Positions 6,625 through 53,246 of a stretch of 64,000 nt of DNA are shown here, piece by piece. Position numbers and translations under genes: made by a program. The DNA is from Xanthobacteraceae bacterium (GTDB lineage Bacteria; Pseudomonadota; Alphaproteobacteria; Rhizobiales; Xanthobacteraceae): the NCBI GenBank assembly GCA_024508855.1, contig JANINJ010000042.1, forward strand, positions 1 to 64,000, in the 5' to 3' direction. Under the pieces are notes generated by a model that did not search any database, was not told the origin of the DNA, and saw only the letters and a list, made by a program, of their open reading frames with translations. Positions within the stretch are counted from its first letter, which is position 1; each line of letters starts with the position of its first letter.

Positions 6625-7368
6625 ATGAGTCCGGCTCTACAAACAAAAAGCCGTCCCTTTGAACGCGGCATAGAGCTTCTCGACAGAGTGGACTATCGTT
6701 TGGCGGAAACCGAGGCCGATAAGGAGGCCATATACCGGTTGCGCTATCGCGCCTACCTCAATGAAGGGGCGATTGAGCCGAATTCCGAGCGGATGGTCAC
6801 CGATCGCTTCGACGAGATGAAGAACTCGTGGGTGTTCGGCGTCTACATCGACGGCGGGCTTGCGAGTTCCATCCGCATCAGCGTGGCCACCCCCGCTTTC
6901 CCAACCTCTCCATCGGTCGACGTGTTTTCGGATATCCTCGGACCGGAGCTCGAACGGGGCATGACGATCGTCGATCCGACGCGCTTCGTCGCCGATCCGG
7001 CGCGCGCGAGCGGATTTCCGGAACTTCCGTATGTAACCGTTCGGTTGGGATACGTGGCGTGCGGATATTTCAACGCTGATATCGGACTGGCCACGGTTCG
7101 CGCCGAACACCGGGCGTTCTATCGTCGGGTTTTCCTGCAGGAATCCTGGTGTGAGCCACGAATATTCCCGGGATTGCTCAAGCCGGTCGGGCTGATGGCC
7201 GCACGGTATCGCACGACCCGCGAAGGCGTATTCCAGCGCTTCCCCTATATGCGCTCGAGCTATTTCGAGCGGCGCATGTTGTTCGAGCGCAATCCGGGGC
7301 GGGAAGTGCCGGTCCCGGCTCTGGCCGATTGCATGTCGGATCGTCCCTCGATCGTTCCGCGTTCCTGA
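6625..7368 (+). CDS. N-acyl amino acid synthase-like GNAT protein (FeeM type)
   Basis: Resembles the FeeM / exosortase-associated acyltransferase family, related to LuxI-type autoinducer synthases. These join an acyl chain from acyl carrier protein to an amino acid or similar amine. The 247-residue product has the family N-terminus (IYRLRYRAYLNEGAIEPN), an acidic DRFDEMKNSWVFGVY segment, the SSIRISV strand with its arginine, and the GNAT-like core TIVDPTRFVAD. The start is the ATG at 6625 because AAGGAGG lies five bases upstream; a GTG at 6604 would put that site inside the gene. Substrate is unknown. It follows the c-di-GMP enzyme by 143 bases. Confidence 0.75.
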   Translation: MSPALQTKSRPFERGIELLDRVDYRLAETEADKEAIYRLRYRAYLNEGAIEPNSERMVTDRFDEMKNSWVFGVYIDGGLASSIRISVATPAFPTSPSVDVFSDILGPELERGMTIVDPTRFVADPARASGFPELPYVTVRLGYVACGYFNADIGLATVRAEHRAFYRRVFLQESWCEPRIFPGLLKPVGLMAARYRTTREGVFQRFPYMRSSYFERRMLFERNPGREVPVPALADCMSDRPSIVPRS

Positions 7369-14960: not shown

Positions 14961-15359
14961 CTACTTGCTCTTGATCTTGCCGTCCTTGTCGAACTGGGAG
15001 ATGAACGCCCAGAGGTTGTCGACTTCCGACTCCTTGGTGATGCCGGCGAATGCCATCTTGGTCCCGGGAATCTTCGCCTTCGGACCCTTGATGTATTCCT
15101 TGAATTCCTTCTCGTTCCAGGTGATGCCGGAATTCTTGTTGGCGTCGGAATAGGAATAGCCCTCGACCGTTCCTGATTTGCGCCCGTCCAGGCCATTGAG
15201 CTCCGGGCCGACCTTGTTCTTCGCGCCTTCGCCGATGGAATGGCAGGCCATGCACTTGTTGAACGAGGTCTTGCCGGCGGCGATGTCTTGTGCGCTTGCA
15301 GCGTGAGAGGAAACCGCGAAGGCGGCAGCGATCAGGAGGCTGACGGTCAGTTTTTTCAT
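14961..15359 (-). CDS. Soluble class I cytochrome c (c2 / c550 type)
   Basis: Periplasmic electron carrier. The 132-residue precursor starts MKKLTV, has a signal peptide to about residue 23 (ASA), and binds haem at CMACH (36-40). GPELNGLDGRKSG follows, with a probable axial methionine in GTKMAFAG. The order and length match cytochrome c2/c550. I set the start at 15359; a frame extending to 15464 has no signal-peptide logic. Convergent with the TetR gene (stops eight bases apart). Partners are not indicated by neighbours. Confidence 0.9.
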   Translation of the reverse strand: MKKLTVSLLIAAAFAVSSHAASAQDIAAGKTSFNKCMACHSIGEGAKNKVGPELNGLDGRKSGTVEGYSYSDANKNSGITWNEKEFKEYIKGPKAKIPGTKMAFAGITKESEVDNLWAFISQFDKDGKIKSK

Positions 15360-50210: not shown

Positions 50211-51047
50211 ATGCGTGCCTTTTCCGGTTTCATTTTCGCGGCTCTGCTGATGGCGACGCCGGCGATTGCCGCGCCGTCGGCCCCGGAACGCGTCGACATT
50301 CCGCGGCCGAGCGGCGCCTTGCACGCACTGCTTTACAAGCCGGACGGCAACGGCCCGTTTCCCACAGTGATCGCGCTGCACGATTGCAGCGGATTGACCG
50401 GACACGACGGCCGGCTGCTGCCGCGCTATCACGACTGGATGGGACAATTGCTGAAGGGGGGCAACGCGGTCCTGTTCCCCGATAGCTACGGATCGCGCAA
50501 CGTCGGTGCGCAATGCCACGCGAAGGAACGCAAGGTGCTGGCGCGGCGCGAACGCGTTGCCGACGTGCTCACGTCGCGGCAGTGGCTGCTGGAACAGCCG
50601 TGGGTATCGCGCGAGCATATCGGGCTGGTCGGCTGGGCCAACGGCGCAAGCGCGTTGCTATGGGCGGTGCGGCCGCAACTGGCACCGCATATGCTGTCGC
50701 CGGATTTCCGTTCCGCCGTCGCGTTCTATCCGGATTGCCGGATGTCGGCGCGGCTGGGCTGGAGCACGCGGGTGCCGACGCTGCTGATGATCGGCGCCAA
50801 GGATGAAACCAGTTCACCGGCCGCATGTCGCGAGATGATCGAGGATGCGCGCGGCCGCAGCGCGCTGGCCCGCATCGTGGTCTATCCCGGCGCCGACCAT
50901 GCGTTCGATCATCCGAACGATCCACGCCATGCGCTGGCGGCGGCGCCGGGCGCAGCGTTGCCCGCTTCTGCGCGCGCGGCGCGGACTTGGGACCACGAAG
51001 CGCACGCCAATTCAGAGAAACGCTTGATGGAATGGCTGGCGCGATGA
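50211..51047 (+). CDS. Secreted dienelactone hydrolase-like protein, nucleophile replaced by Ala
   Basis: A 278-residue alpha/beta-hydrolase of the dienelactone hydrolase family with a signal peptide (MRAFSGFIFAALLMATPAIA). The fold is clear from VIALHDCSGLTG, LFPDSYGSRN, VGWANGASALLW, LLMIGAKDETSS and YPGADHAFDHP. The nucleophile elbow reads G-W-A-N-G, with Ala where Ser or Cys is expected. The Asp and His of the triad are kept. It may therefore be non-catalytic. The start could also be ATG 50184. Function unknown. Confidence 0.78.
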   Translation: MRAFSGFIFAALLMATPAIAAPSAPERVDIPRPSGALHALLYKPDGNGPFPTVIALHDCSGLTGHDGRLLPRYHDWMGQLLKGGNAVLFPDSYGSRNVGAQCHAKERKVLARRERVADVLTSRQWLLEQPWVSREHIGLVGWANGASALLWAVRPQLAPHMLSPDFRSAVAFYPDCRMSARLGWSTRVPTLLMIGAKDETSSPAACREMIEDARGRSALARIVVYPGADHAFDHPNDPRHALAAAPGAALPASARAARTWDHEAHANSEKRLMEWLAR

Positions 51048-51083
51048 CCGATCCGCGGCGTTGCCGCGCATCGATCGAGCGCA

Positions 51084-53246
51084 TCAGTGTCCCATGCCGG
51101 GCATCACGACACCGTTGTAGATGTCGGGATTGGGCTCGCCGTCCACGATCAGCATTCCCGCCAGCCCGCGTTCCGCGCGCGCGAGGGCGTGATCGACAAT
51201 GGTGTAGTTGCCCGGCACTTCGAGCTTGAACTCCGTAATCACCGCGCCGCCCGGCGGCACCGTCACGGTCTGGATGCCCTGCAGCGGCGGGCTCAGTACG
51301 CCGCCGAGATTGTAGACCCGGTCGAACATCTCGCCGATGACATGGAATGCCGAGGTGAAGTTGGGGCCGCCGACGCCGAAATACATCCGCACGGTTTCGC
51401 CGACCTTGGCATGCAGCGGATGCAGCTTGGTGATGGCGCCGACCGAGCCGTTGAAGACGAAATATTCCGGCCGCTCATTGAGCAGTTTCTCGACGCTGAA
51501 CTCCTGGCTGCCGTGCTGGCCGTAGGGCGCATCGGTGTAGATCTCGCCCTGCATGATATAGAACTCATGATCGACCGGCGGCAGGCCGCCCTCCGGTTCG
51601 ACCAGGATCATGCCGTACATGCCGTTCGCGATGTGTTCGGCGACCATCGGCGTGGCGCAGTGATAGACGTAGAGGCCCGGGATCAGCGCCTTGAACGTCA
51701 TCGATTTTTCCTTGCCGGGATCGACCTGCAAGGCGGCGGCGCCGCCTCCGGGGCCGGTTGCAGCGTGGAAGTCGACCGAATGGATCATGTTGCTGTCGGC
51801 CGAATTCTTCAGATGCACATCCACGGTGTCGCCGACGCGCACGCGCACGAACGGGCCCGGCACCTTGCCGTTGAAGGTCCAGTAGCCGAACGTGGTGCCT
51901 TCCGCGAGGCGGCCTTCCATCTCGACCGTGAACAAATCGAGCCGCACCGTCTTGGGATCGCGCTTTCCGATCGGCGGCGGCAGGTCGGCAGGATCGCGCG
52001 AGATATCGGCCTCGACCACGGTCTGCGGCGCCGGCGTCGATGTCACCAAAAACTGCCCCTCCATGCCGGCGAGCCGGTGGCCGGGAACATCGCAGTAGTA
52101 GAGAAAGTCGCCGGCCTTGGTGGCGCGGAATACGATGCTGGTGCTGGCGCCCTTGCTGATGACGCGTGGCGACCGTGCATCCTGATCGGGAAAGACGATG
52201 TCGTGCTCGGTGCCTTCGCCGTTGATGAGCGTGATCTGCACGACCTGGCCTTCGACGGCGGTGAGGATCGGATTGGCCTTGCCATCGATCGTGCCGCCGA
52301 CGCCGAGGAACACCATCTTTCCATCCGCGATGCCCGAGCGCAGCGTGTACTTGGCGTCGGAGAGATATGCCACTGCCGGGCGCGCCGCGTTCTGCTGCGT
52401 CGAAGGCGCAGCAGCAGCCGGCCCAGGCGCCGGATTTGCTGCAGCGGCGGGTGCCGCGGCAGCCGCGGGCGCGCCGGCGCCGGACGAGGCGAGGAAGGCG
52501 ATCACGTCGGTGCGCTCGTCGTTGGTCTTCAGTCCCGGGAACGGCATCTTGTTGCCGGGCACGACCTTCTGCGGATCGAGCAGATAGGTATCGAGTTTCT
52601 CCGGCGTCCAGGTGATGCCGCTCTGCTTCATCGCCGGCGAGAAACTGTAGTTGGCGACTTCGCCCGCCTTGCTTCCGATAATGCCGGCAAGGCTCGGCCC
52701 CAGCATGTTCTTGCCCGGCTGGACCGAATGACAGGCCTGACATTTCTTGAACACCTGCCGGCCGTGCGCGACATCGCCTTCGACGCTGGCCATTTTCGTT
52801 GCAGGAGCAGCGGCGGGCGTTGCAGCCGGAGCCGCCTTGGGTGCGGGGGCCTGCGCCTGGGTTTGCGCCATCTGCATTGTATGAGCGTGGGCGGGCGGAG
52901 GCGCGGCCTTCGCCGTCGCATCGTTTGCAGCGGGCGGCGTTGACGATGGCTTCGCGGCTGCCGGTGCCGCGGGCTCGGCTTTCGCAGCCGGTTGCGGCGT
53001 CGGCGCGGCGTGCATCGCCATTTTCGTGTGGTCCGCGGCCTTTGTCGTGTCGGCAGTCTTGGGTTGCTCCTTCGCGGTCGCGGCCGGTGACGGTTCGGCC
53101 CTCGCGCTGGCTTCCGATTGCGTGGCCGGTGCAGTTGGCTGGCCTTGCGACCACGCTGCATATCCGGCGAGACCGAGGAGGAGGGCCACGCCCACCGTTC
53201 CCGGAAGCCAGTTCTTCAAGCTCGAGCGATCAGAATCGGAAGCCAT
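51084..53246 (-). CDS. nirK: Copper nitrite reductase with N-terminal cytochrome c and cupredoxin domains
   Basis: Reduces nitrite to nitric oxide in the periplasm. The 720-residue protein has five parts. A membrane anchor or signal (about 12-32) leads into an Ala/Pro/Lys-rich linker (33-150). A class I cytochrome c (about 155-250) has CQACH at 168-172 and Met in GNKMPFPG. A cupredoxin domain (about 300-400) has type 1 copper ligands His in TEHDIVF and Cys, His, Met in YYCDVPGHRLAGMEG. The NirK core (about 415-715) keeps every ligand: MIHSVDFH, YHCATPMVAEHIANGM (His529, Cys530), FHVIGE and VDHALA. An FNR-like site lies about 60 bases upstream. All three redox modules look functional. Confidence 0.92.
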   Translation of the reverse strand: MASDSDRSSLKNWLPGTVGVALLLGLAGYAAWSQGQPTAPATQSEASARAEPSPAATAKEQPKTADTTKAADHTKMAMHAAPTPQPAAKAEPAAPAAAKPSSTPPAANDATAKAAPPPAHAHTMQMAQTQAQAPAPKAAPAATPAAAPATKMASVEGDVAHGRQVFKKCQACHSVQPGKNMLGPSLAGIIGSKAGEVANYSFSPAMKQSGITWTPEKLDTYLLDPQKVVPGNKMPFPGLKTNDERTDVIAFLASSGAGAPAAAAAPAAAANPAPGPAAAAPSTQQNAARPAVAYLSDAKYTLRSGIADGKMVFLGVGGTIDGKANPILTAVEGQVVQITLINGEGTEHDIVFPDQDARSPRVISKGASTSIVFRATKAGDFLYYCDVPGHRLAGMEGQFLVTSTPAPQTVVEADISRDPADLPPPIGKRDPKTVRLDLFTVEMEGRLAEGTTFGYWTFNGKVPGPFVRVRVGDTVDVHLKNSADSNMIHSVDFHAATGPGGGAAALQVDPGKEKSMTFKALIPGLYVYHCATPMVAEHIANGMYGMILVEPEGGLPPVDHEFYIMQGEIYTDAPYGQHGSQEFSVEKLLNERPEYFVFNGSVGAITKLHPLHAKVGETVRMYFGVGGPNFTSAFHVIGEMFDRVYNLGGVLSPPLQGIQTVTVPPGGAVITEFKLEVPGNYTIVDHALARAERGLAGMLIVDGEPNPDIYNGVVMPGMGH

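Follow-up and report, generated by a model that had tools for sequence, protein, structure and literature searches.

Introduction

The four-domain copper nitrite reductase (NirK) of Bradyrhizobium sp. ORS 375, here BrNiR, whose core is the structure 6the, is the subject of a primary paper by Sasaki et al. (FEBS J 2021, doi 10.1111/febs.15324), in which tethering reportedly lowers the activity. In enzymes of this type, a cytochrome c and a cupredoxin are both tethered N-terminally to the two-domain core (PMC8301774), and the title of PDB entry 6the announces the core of the "four-domain heme-cupredoxin-Cu nitrite reductase from Bradyrhizobium sp. ORS 375". According to PMC7775769, hosts of a four-domain NirK, ORS 375 among them, also have a second, two-domain NirK. 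Other fused NirKs combine these modules differently. HdNiR of Hyphomicrobium denitrificans (PDB 2dv6, 6tfd, and 6tfo) has the cupredoxin and core in the same order but no haem domain. In RpNiR (Ralstonia pickettii) and PhNiR (Pseudoalteromonas), a haem c domain shares the chain with NirK but is located at the C-terminal end, with no extra N-terminal cupredoxin.

Here, we analyzed a stretch of 64,000 nucleotides (the window) from contig JANINJ010000042.1 of the Xanthobacteraceae bacterium assembly GCA_024508855.1, which encodes a NirK with both N-terminal additions. A sequence-only reading of this DNA had cautioned that four-domain forms may be known in Bradyrhizobium, and the caution was justified (PMC8301774; title of PDB 6the): the architecture is already known from BrNiR, with which the window protein shares all four domains, and the window protein adds a member.

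Results

Domain architecture and metal ligands

The gene is a single open frame of 720 amino acids on the minus strand of the window (51084–53246), with its ATG at 53246 and its stop codon ending at 51084 (Table 1). The start codon is backed by three relatives (L003, L004, and L005) with near-identical first residues. From the N-terminus, the chain comprises a hydrophobic segment, an Ala/Pro linker, a c-type cytochrome, a second linker, a type 1 copper cupredoxin, and the NirK core. The best Pfam stretches are Cytochrom_C at residues 159–254, Cupredoxin_1 at 327–389, Copper-bind at 359–401, and Cu-oxidase_3 (multicopper oxidase domain, NirK) at 451–552, while the NCBIfam profile TIGR02376 (Cu_nitrite_red) matches residues 414–715 with 346.7 bits, above its curated cut-off of 296.3. 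Among NCBIfam haem profiles, that of the c550 CycA (NF043008) fits the fused cytochrome best, although its 89.0 bits are far under the cut-off of 240. The hydrophobic segment, whose 19-residue hydropathy mean of 1.50 at residue 14 is moderate and below that of most relatives, may be a membrane anchor or a cleaved signal peptide.

Table 1. Features of the nirK gene and its upstream region in the window
Feature	Positions	Strand	Extent or evidence
Four-domain NirK CDS	51084..53246	-	720 aa
Hydrophobic N-terminal segment, residues 14-32 (putative anchor or signal)	53151..53207	-	hydropathy 1.50 over 19 residues
First linker, residues 33-158 (126 residues)	52773..53150	-	69% A/P/T/K
His/Met island HAHTMQM, residues 120-126	52869..52889	-	His clustering across relatives' linkers
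Cytochrome c domain, residues 159-254, CQACH and Met234	52485..52772	-	profiles, alignment
Second linker, about residues 255-293	52368..52484	-	alignment
Tyr294, possible gatekeeper	52365..52367	-	tyrosine in 34/34; register from alignments to 2dv6 and 6tfd
Type 1 copper cupredoxin, residues 294-404	52035..52367	-	profiles, structure matches, alignment
NirK core (T1Cu and T2Cu), residues 413-715	51102..52010	-	profile, alignment
TTG-N8-CAA (FNR/FixK/NnrR-like) site TTGTTCGGGCGCAA	53366..53379	-	120-133 bases before ATG

The putative haem c ligands are Cys169, Cys172, His173, and Met234. The cupredoxin carries His348, Cys385, His390, and Met395 for its type 1 copper, the core carries His489, Cys530, His538, and Met543 for the second type 1 copper (T1Cu) and His494, His529, and His686 for the type 2 copper (T2Cu), and the catalytic residues are Asp492, His635, and Ile637; the role of each residue is presumed here from NirK and cupredoxin numbering. 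All 18 haem, copper, and catalytic positions are invariant across the 30 four-domain rows of an alignment (A1) that includes 30 of the 34 four-domain sequences (those other than L021, L026, L029, and L039) and 7 of the 10 three-domain rows, and all seven three-domain rows share the 14 that serve copper binding or catalysis.

The sequence-only reading had thus been right about a single 720-residue chain with haem, cupredoxin, and NirK parts, about its domain content and order, and about its full set of haem and copper ligands. In the domain search that it had proposed, cytochrome c, cupredoxin, and NirK profiles all match and no domain is absent; the minus strand is an addition of the present analysis.

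Comparison with solved nitrite reductases

The window protein has 253 of 314 core residues identical to 6the of BrNiR, a kinship that is measured on the core. HdNiR, at 62–64% identity over cupredoxin plus core in Foldseek alignments, lacks the haem domain that is present here. The cores of RpNiR and PhNiR are about 47–48% identical, and their haem lies at the opposite end of the chain; in the window protein, the matched NirK core leaves just 8 residues to the C-terminus, which is no room for a C-terminal cytochrome c of the RpNiR kind. Instead, a cytochrome c and a cupredoxin both precede the NirK core in one chain, as in BrNiR, with what appear to be intact ligand sets for one haem c, two type 1 coppers, and one type 2 copper. 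Among the 60 listed of 278 matched solved chains, none joins this N-terminal haem domain to NirK. We read the gene product as a four-domain copper nitrite reductase of the BrNiR kind that works in the periplasm and is probably tethered to the membrane, and give this explanation as a whole a probability of roughly 0.9.

Distribution and phylogeny of the four-domain form

A scan of a genome collection returned 66 loci, 33 of which encode a haem motif, a cupredoxin, and NirK in a single frame (L011 starts and L039 stops at a contig edge, and L025 and L026 are near-copies). These 33 loci come from both isolates and metagenome-assembled genomes (MAGs). All those with a genus or family name are alphaproteobacterial (Bradyrhizobium, Afipia, Pseudolabrys, Rhodoplanes, Microvirga, Methyloceanibacter, and Xanthobacteraceae), and three are named no further than Pseudomonadota or Proteobacteria. 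Among the matches listed for 99 other sampled genomes of the family, eight genomes place their NirK match within a frame of 685–820 codons, and all eight of these frames also contain a c550 match; with the genome of the window included, the counts become 9 of 100 and 9 of 9.

These counts bear on whether the fusion could be an assembly or sequencing artefact that joined separate genes. Ala/Pro-rich linkers are the type of sequence in which such a suspicion could arise, and nothing was found in its favor: with all three parts in one frame at 33 other public loci from isolates and MAGs, and the same fusion in eight further sampled genomes, a sequencing error is ruled out for practical purposes and the chance of an artefact is negligible.

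In a core tree of 61 rows (the 66 loci minus L031, L039, L062, L063, L067, and L068, plus the window), from which the ORS 375 sequence is absent, all 33 four-domain rows, the window included, form one clade with support of 100/99; the fusion therefore arose once within this sample. The nearest three-domain rows are from Salinisphaera and join weakly (82/34).

A Marinagarivorans MAG locus (L040) matched both haem and NirK parts and was considered as an unfused forerunner. It was rejected, as the haem match lies in its own protein, which carries two haem motifs, neighbors a NorB-like protein, and was read as NorC and not as a c550 next to NirK; L040 (5944–10008) is a three-domain cupredoxin-NirK near norC- and norB-like genes, the NorB and NorC names being assigned by eye. 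Two Bacteroidetes NirKs with a C-terminal cytochrome c motif (L058 and L066) are sisters in the tree. A four-domain relative on a MAG contig (L031, 4882–6635) has a matched stretch that is not a single open frame, and in two genomes of the same genus as one another (G001 contig C52 and G048 contig C468), nirK is split over two overlapping frames by a frame break or an error.

A conserved tyrosine ahead of the cupredoxin

Tyr294, at the start of the cupredoxin, is a tyrosine in all 34 four-domain sequences, while the preceding linker is unconserved. Since the four-domain sequences are all at least 69% alike to the window protein in A1, this invariance is modest evidence when taken alone. Among the seven three-domain rows in which the segment was found (L043 and L054 gave no match), a tyrosine occupies the corresponding place in L041 alone; L040, which was outside the scan, has a proline there. 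According to PMC7201279, the peptide that leads into the cupredoxin of HdNiR from strain 1NES1 carries a histidine, His27, that extends to the catalytic copper, where it anchors nitrite. In our alignment register, His27 falls on Leu295 of the window protein, and Tyr294 lies one residue earlier. In Ralstonia NirK, a conserved tyrosine of the tether controls access to the catalytic copper site (PMC13324648). As the Ralstonia residue controls this same site, a gate is an attractive reading of Tyr294, and by this analogy Tyr294 is a possible gatekeeper of the catalytic copper; the duller reading is simple packing where the cupredoxin begins.

A histidine island in the first linker

Two histidines within three residues occur in the first linker of 24 of 30 members (the 34 four-domain sequences other than L011, L021, L026, and L027), whereas 2000 shuffling trials averaged 3.9 such linkers and never exceeded 10. 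After thinning to 14 rows below 85% identity, 10 retain the pattern against 1.35 expected, and none of 2000 shuffles reached as high; thinning to below 75% identity leaves three rows, too few for judgment. The six linkers without the pattern are those of L008, L013, L014, L015, L034, and L039, with L014 having no histidine at all. Taken by itself, the first linker of the window protein shows unexceptional clustering (shuffles as high in a fraction of 0.52 for His and 0.13 for His plus Met). The second linker contains a histidine in 4 of 34 sequences. A copper role for the His/Met island is only an analogy with His/Met-rich metallochaperones such as Neisseria AccA, whose His/Met-rich extension binds Cu(II) and, per a section heading of PMC13006917, is not essential there.

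Upstream site and gene neighborhood

The upstream site (Table 1) follows the pattern TTG-N8-CAA, which we take to be an FNR/FixK/NnrR-type motif. In the window as a whole, this pattern is at chance level (9 matches vs 9.37 expected), and the site therefore counts only through its relatives. There, the box is present upstream of 18 of 31 related loci and missing in 13, against 1.14 expected from single-base shuffles, a count that rests on script-chosen starts in loci related to one another, with the window counted apart and two of the 33 loci having less than 200 bases upstream. Expression is thus probably under an oxygen- or NO-responsive regulator of the CRP/FNR family. Elsewhere in the window, the plus-strand sequence TTGTTCGAGCGCAA at 7279–7292 is one base off the nirK upstream site; sites of its CGCAA type number 2 in the window against 3.26 expected.

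On the same strand, xseA adjoins nirK in the window. Within flanks of at most 6 kb, many of them shorter, xseA is present in 3 of the 33 related loci (L006, L007, and L016), and the neighborhood is therefore not generally kept. A 171-aa frame on the minus strand (50569–51084), which overlaps the nirK stop codon, was considered as an operon partner and rejected as probably not a gene, because neither Pfam nor NCBIfam has a match for it and a dienelactone-hydrolase gene occupies the opposite strand.

Denitrification genes in the genome

The window belongs to a 5.16 Mb draft genome of 107 contigs (99.89% complete) with one NirK locus. The accompanying two-domain NirK, which is a trait of the first described hosts and not of the enzyme, is absent from it, unlike in ORS 375; among the matches listed, a further NirK match, in a short frame and with 530–541 bits, occurs in six of nine four-domain genomes. 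Profiles for NapA, NarG, NnrS, and globin gave no match in the window genome, and the sole NosZ match reached 20.3 bits against a cut-off of 625. NO reductase (Nor) was looked for with PF00115 and with a single cNorB query. PF00115 has four matches in the window genome, which by their best NCBIfam profiles are two aa3, one bo3, and one cbb3 oxidase, with no Nor type among them; the cNorB query found nothing, and it is a weak test as it was also blank in seven of the eight other four-domain genomes. The window enzyme looks like the sole dedicated denitrification-chain enzyme among those sought in this genome.

All three sampled congeners have NnrS and a second, two-domain-type NirK (the latter among the matches listed), and two of them (G072 and G093) have NarG and NosZ, while G040 has neither. 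Within the set of genes sought, the remainder of the pathway was thus probably lost from the window lineage or never present in it. Across the eight other four-domain genomes, NarG occurs in six (G072, G093, G034, G036, G007, and G038) and NosZ is above the cut-off in four; G056 has NapA pieces below the cut-off, and G040 alone lacks NarG, NosZ, and NapA, so the four-domain class mostly goes together with denitrification genes.

As the rest of the pathway is missing from the window genome, the chain might serve mainly NO signaling or nitrite detoxification and not respiration. The lack of NarG, NapA, and NnrS, the NosZ score far below its cut-off, and the lack of a Nor-like protein among the four PF00115 matches are all in line with such a role, and Nor is absent in many NirK organisms of other clades (PMC10999283). 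Yet even an organism with only part of the pathway can use nitrite respiration to form NO, and NarG and NosZ accompany the four-domain class in six and four of eight genomes, respectively. We consider a signaling or detoxifying role a tentative second choice, deserving attention but not our expectation.

In five of the other genomes (G036, G007, G072, G093, and G038), the gene for a PF00115 protein of 578–589 aa is closely preceded by a short stretch that matches the CuA-like C-terminal part of NosZ. This protein is possibly a ba3-type oxidase or an NO reductase, and none of the four proteins matched by PF00115 in the window genome is of this sort.

Discussion

For the four-domain nitrite reductase that we favor, electrons would arrive from the periplasmic cytochrome pool at the haem and/or the cupredoxin, and would then pass through the core T1Cu to the T2Cu, where nitrite would be reduced to NO. 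Cytochrome c550 is normally reduced by the bc1 complex. A c550-like haem makes sense as a donor module, since the title of a cited reference calls cytochrome c550 the physiological redox partner of NirK in Bradyrhizobium japonicum. Bradyrhizobium CycA is a separate protein, whereas the haem domain of the window protein is fused. The window also encodes a CycA of its own (14970–15359, minus strand; 240.6 and 239.6 bits, at the NF043008 cut-off), 36 kb from nirK and 43% identical to the fused haem domain over 97 aa, and this protein, encoded on the same contig, is a likely soluble donor.

The sequence-only reading had further claimed an unbroken electron wire inside the chain that starts at quinol oxidation and ends at the core T1Cu; a fast wire of this kind, through the tethered haem and cupredoxin, would free the enzyme from soluble donors. 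As stated, this claim is unsupported. Every redox centre does sit in one chain, and, according to PMC7201279, C-terminally fused NirKs bring the haem to about 10 Å and the cupredoxin copper to about 14 Å from the core T1Cu, and pulse radiolysis of HdNiR shows electrons reaching the tethered copper first. The same paper, however, places the tethered T1Cu of HdNiR, the nearest solved relative with an N-terminal cupredoxin, about 24 Å from the core T1Cu, which its authors describe as possibly too far for effective transfer. Moreover, two long and poorly conserved linkers (126 and about 40–45 residues) do not suggest a fixed geometry, and the title of a publication on the ORS 375 enzyme speaks of regulation. 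A fast internal wire is therefore unlikely in our judgment.

In the enzyme as we read it, the tethered copper would probably lie far from the core T1Cu, as in HdNiR, and transfer would go through a moving domain, through a neighboring subunit, or slowly; with such a distance, the tether is more likely to set or limit the rate than to serve as a rigid wire. An AlphaFold model of residues 158–720 was weak (mean pLDDT 73.3, pTM 0.53): its first 25 residues, including the haem motif, are below a pLDDT of 50, the placement of haem and cupredoxin is too weak to use, and the cupredoxin/core placement mismatched that of HdNiR (rmsd 16–17 Å over 411–422 columns), so the HdNiR-like geometry is drawn from sequence identity alone.

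A more speculative extension, which we think quite improbable when all its parts are taken together, would make the whole front end a regulatory device. Tyr294 would plug the catalytic copper site as Tyr323 of the tether does in Ralstonia NirK, a convergent solution reached from the other terminus, and would be released according to the redox state of the haem or the cupredoxin; the His-x-His/Met island would load or sense copper, and the resulting throttle would meter NO release in a genome with a lone NirK and without the NO reductase and NO-response genes sought. Literature searches on the four-domain class, aimed at subjects other than the tyrosine, returned passages with no mention of a linker tyrosine or a His island, and we do not claim that either is unpublished. 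Three points may be new: the lone-NirK genome setting, the linker tyrosine, and the His-x-His-like island.

Taken together, the fusion is confirmed and is ordinary for its class, its genomic setting is mildly unusual, and it offers two testable linker features. If the observations on Tyr294 and the His-x-His pattern hold, mutating these residues would be a specific and inexpensive way to ask why a tether at the N-terminus alters NirK activity. Furthermore, a host that has the four-domain enzyme alone would allow its physiological role to be tested without a two-domain copy.
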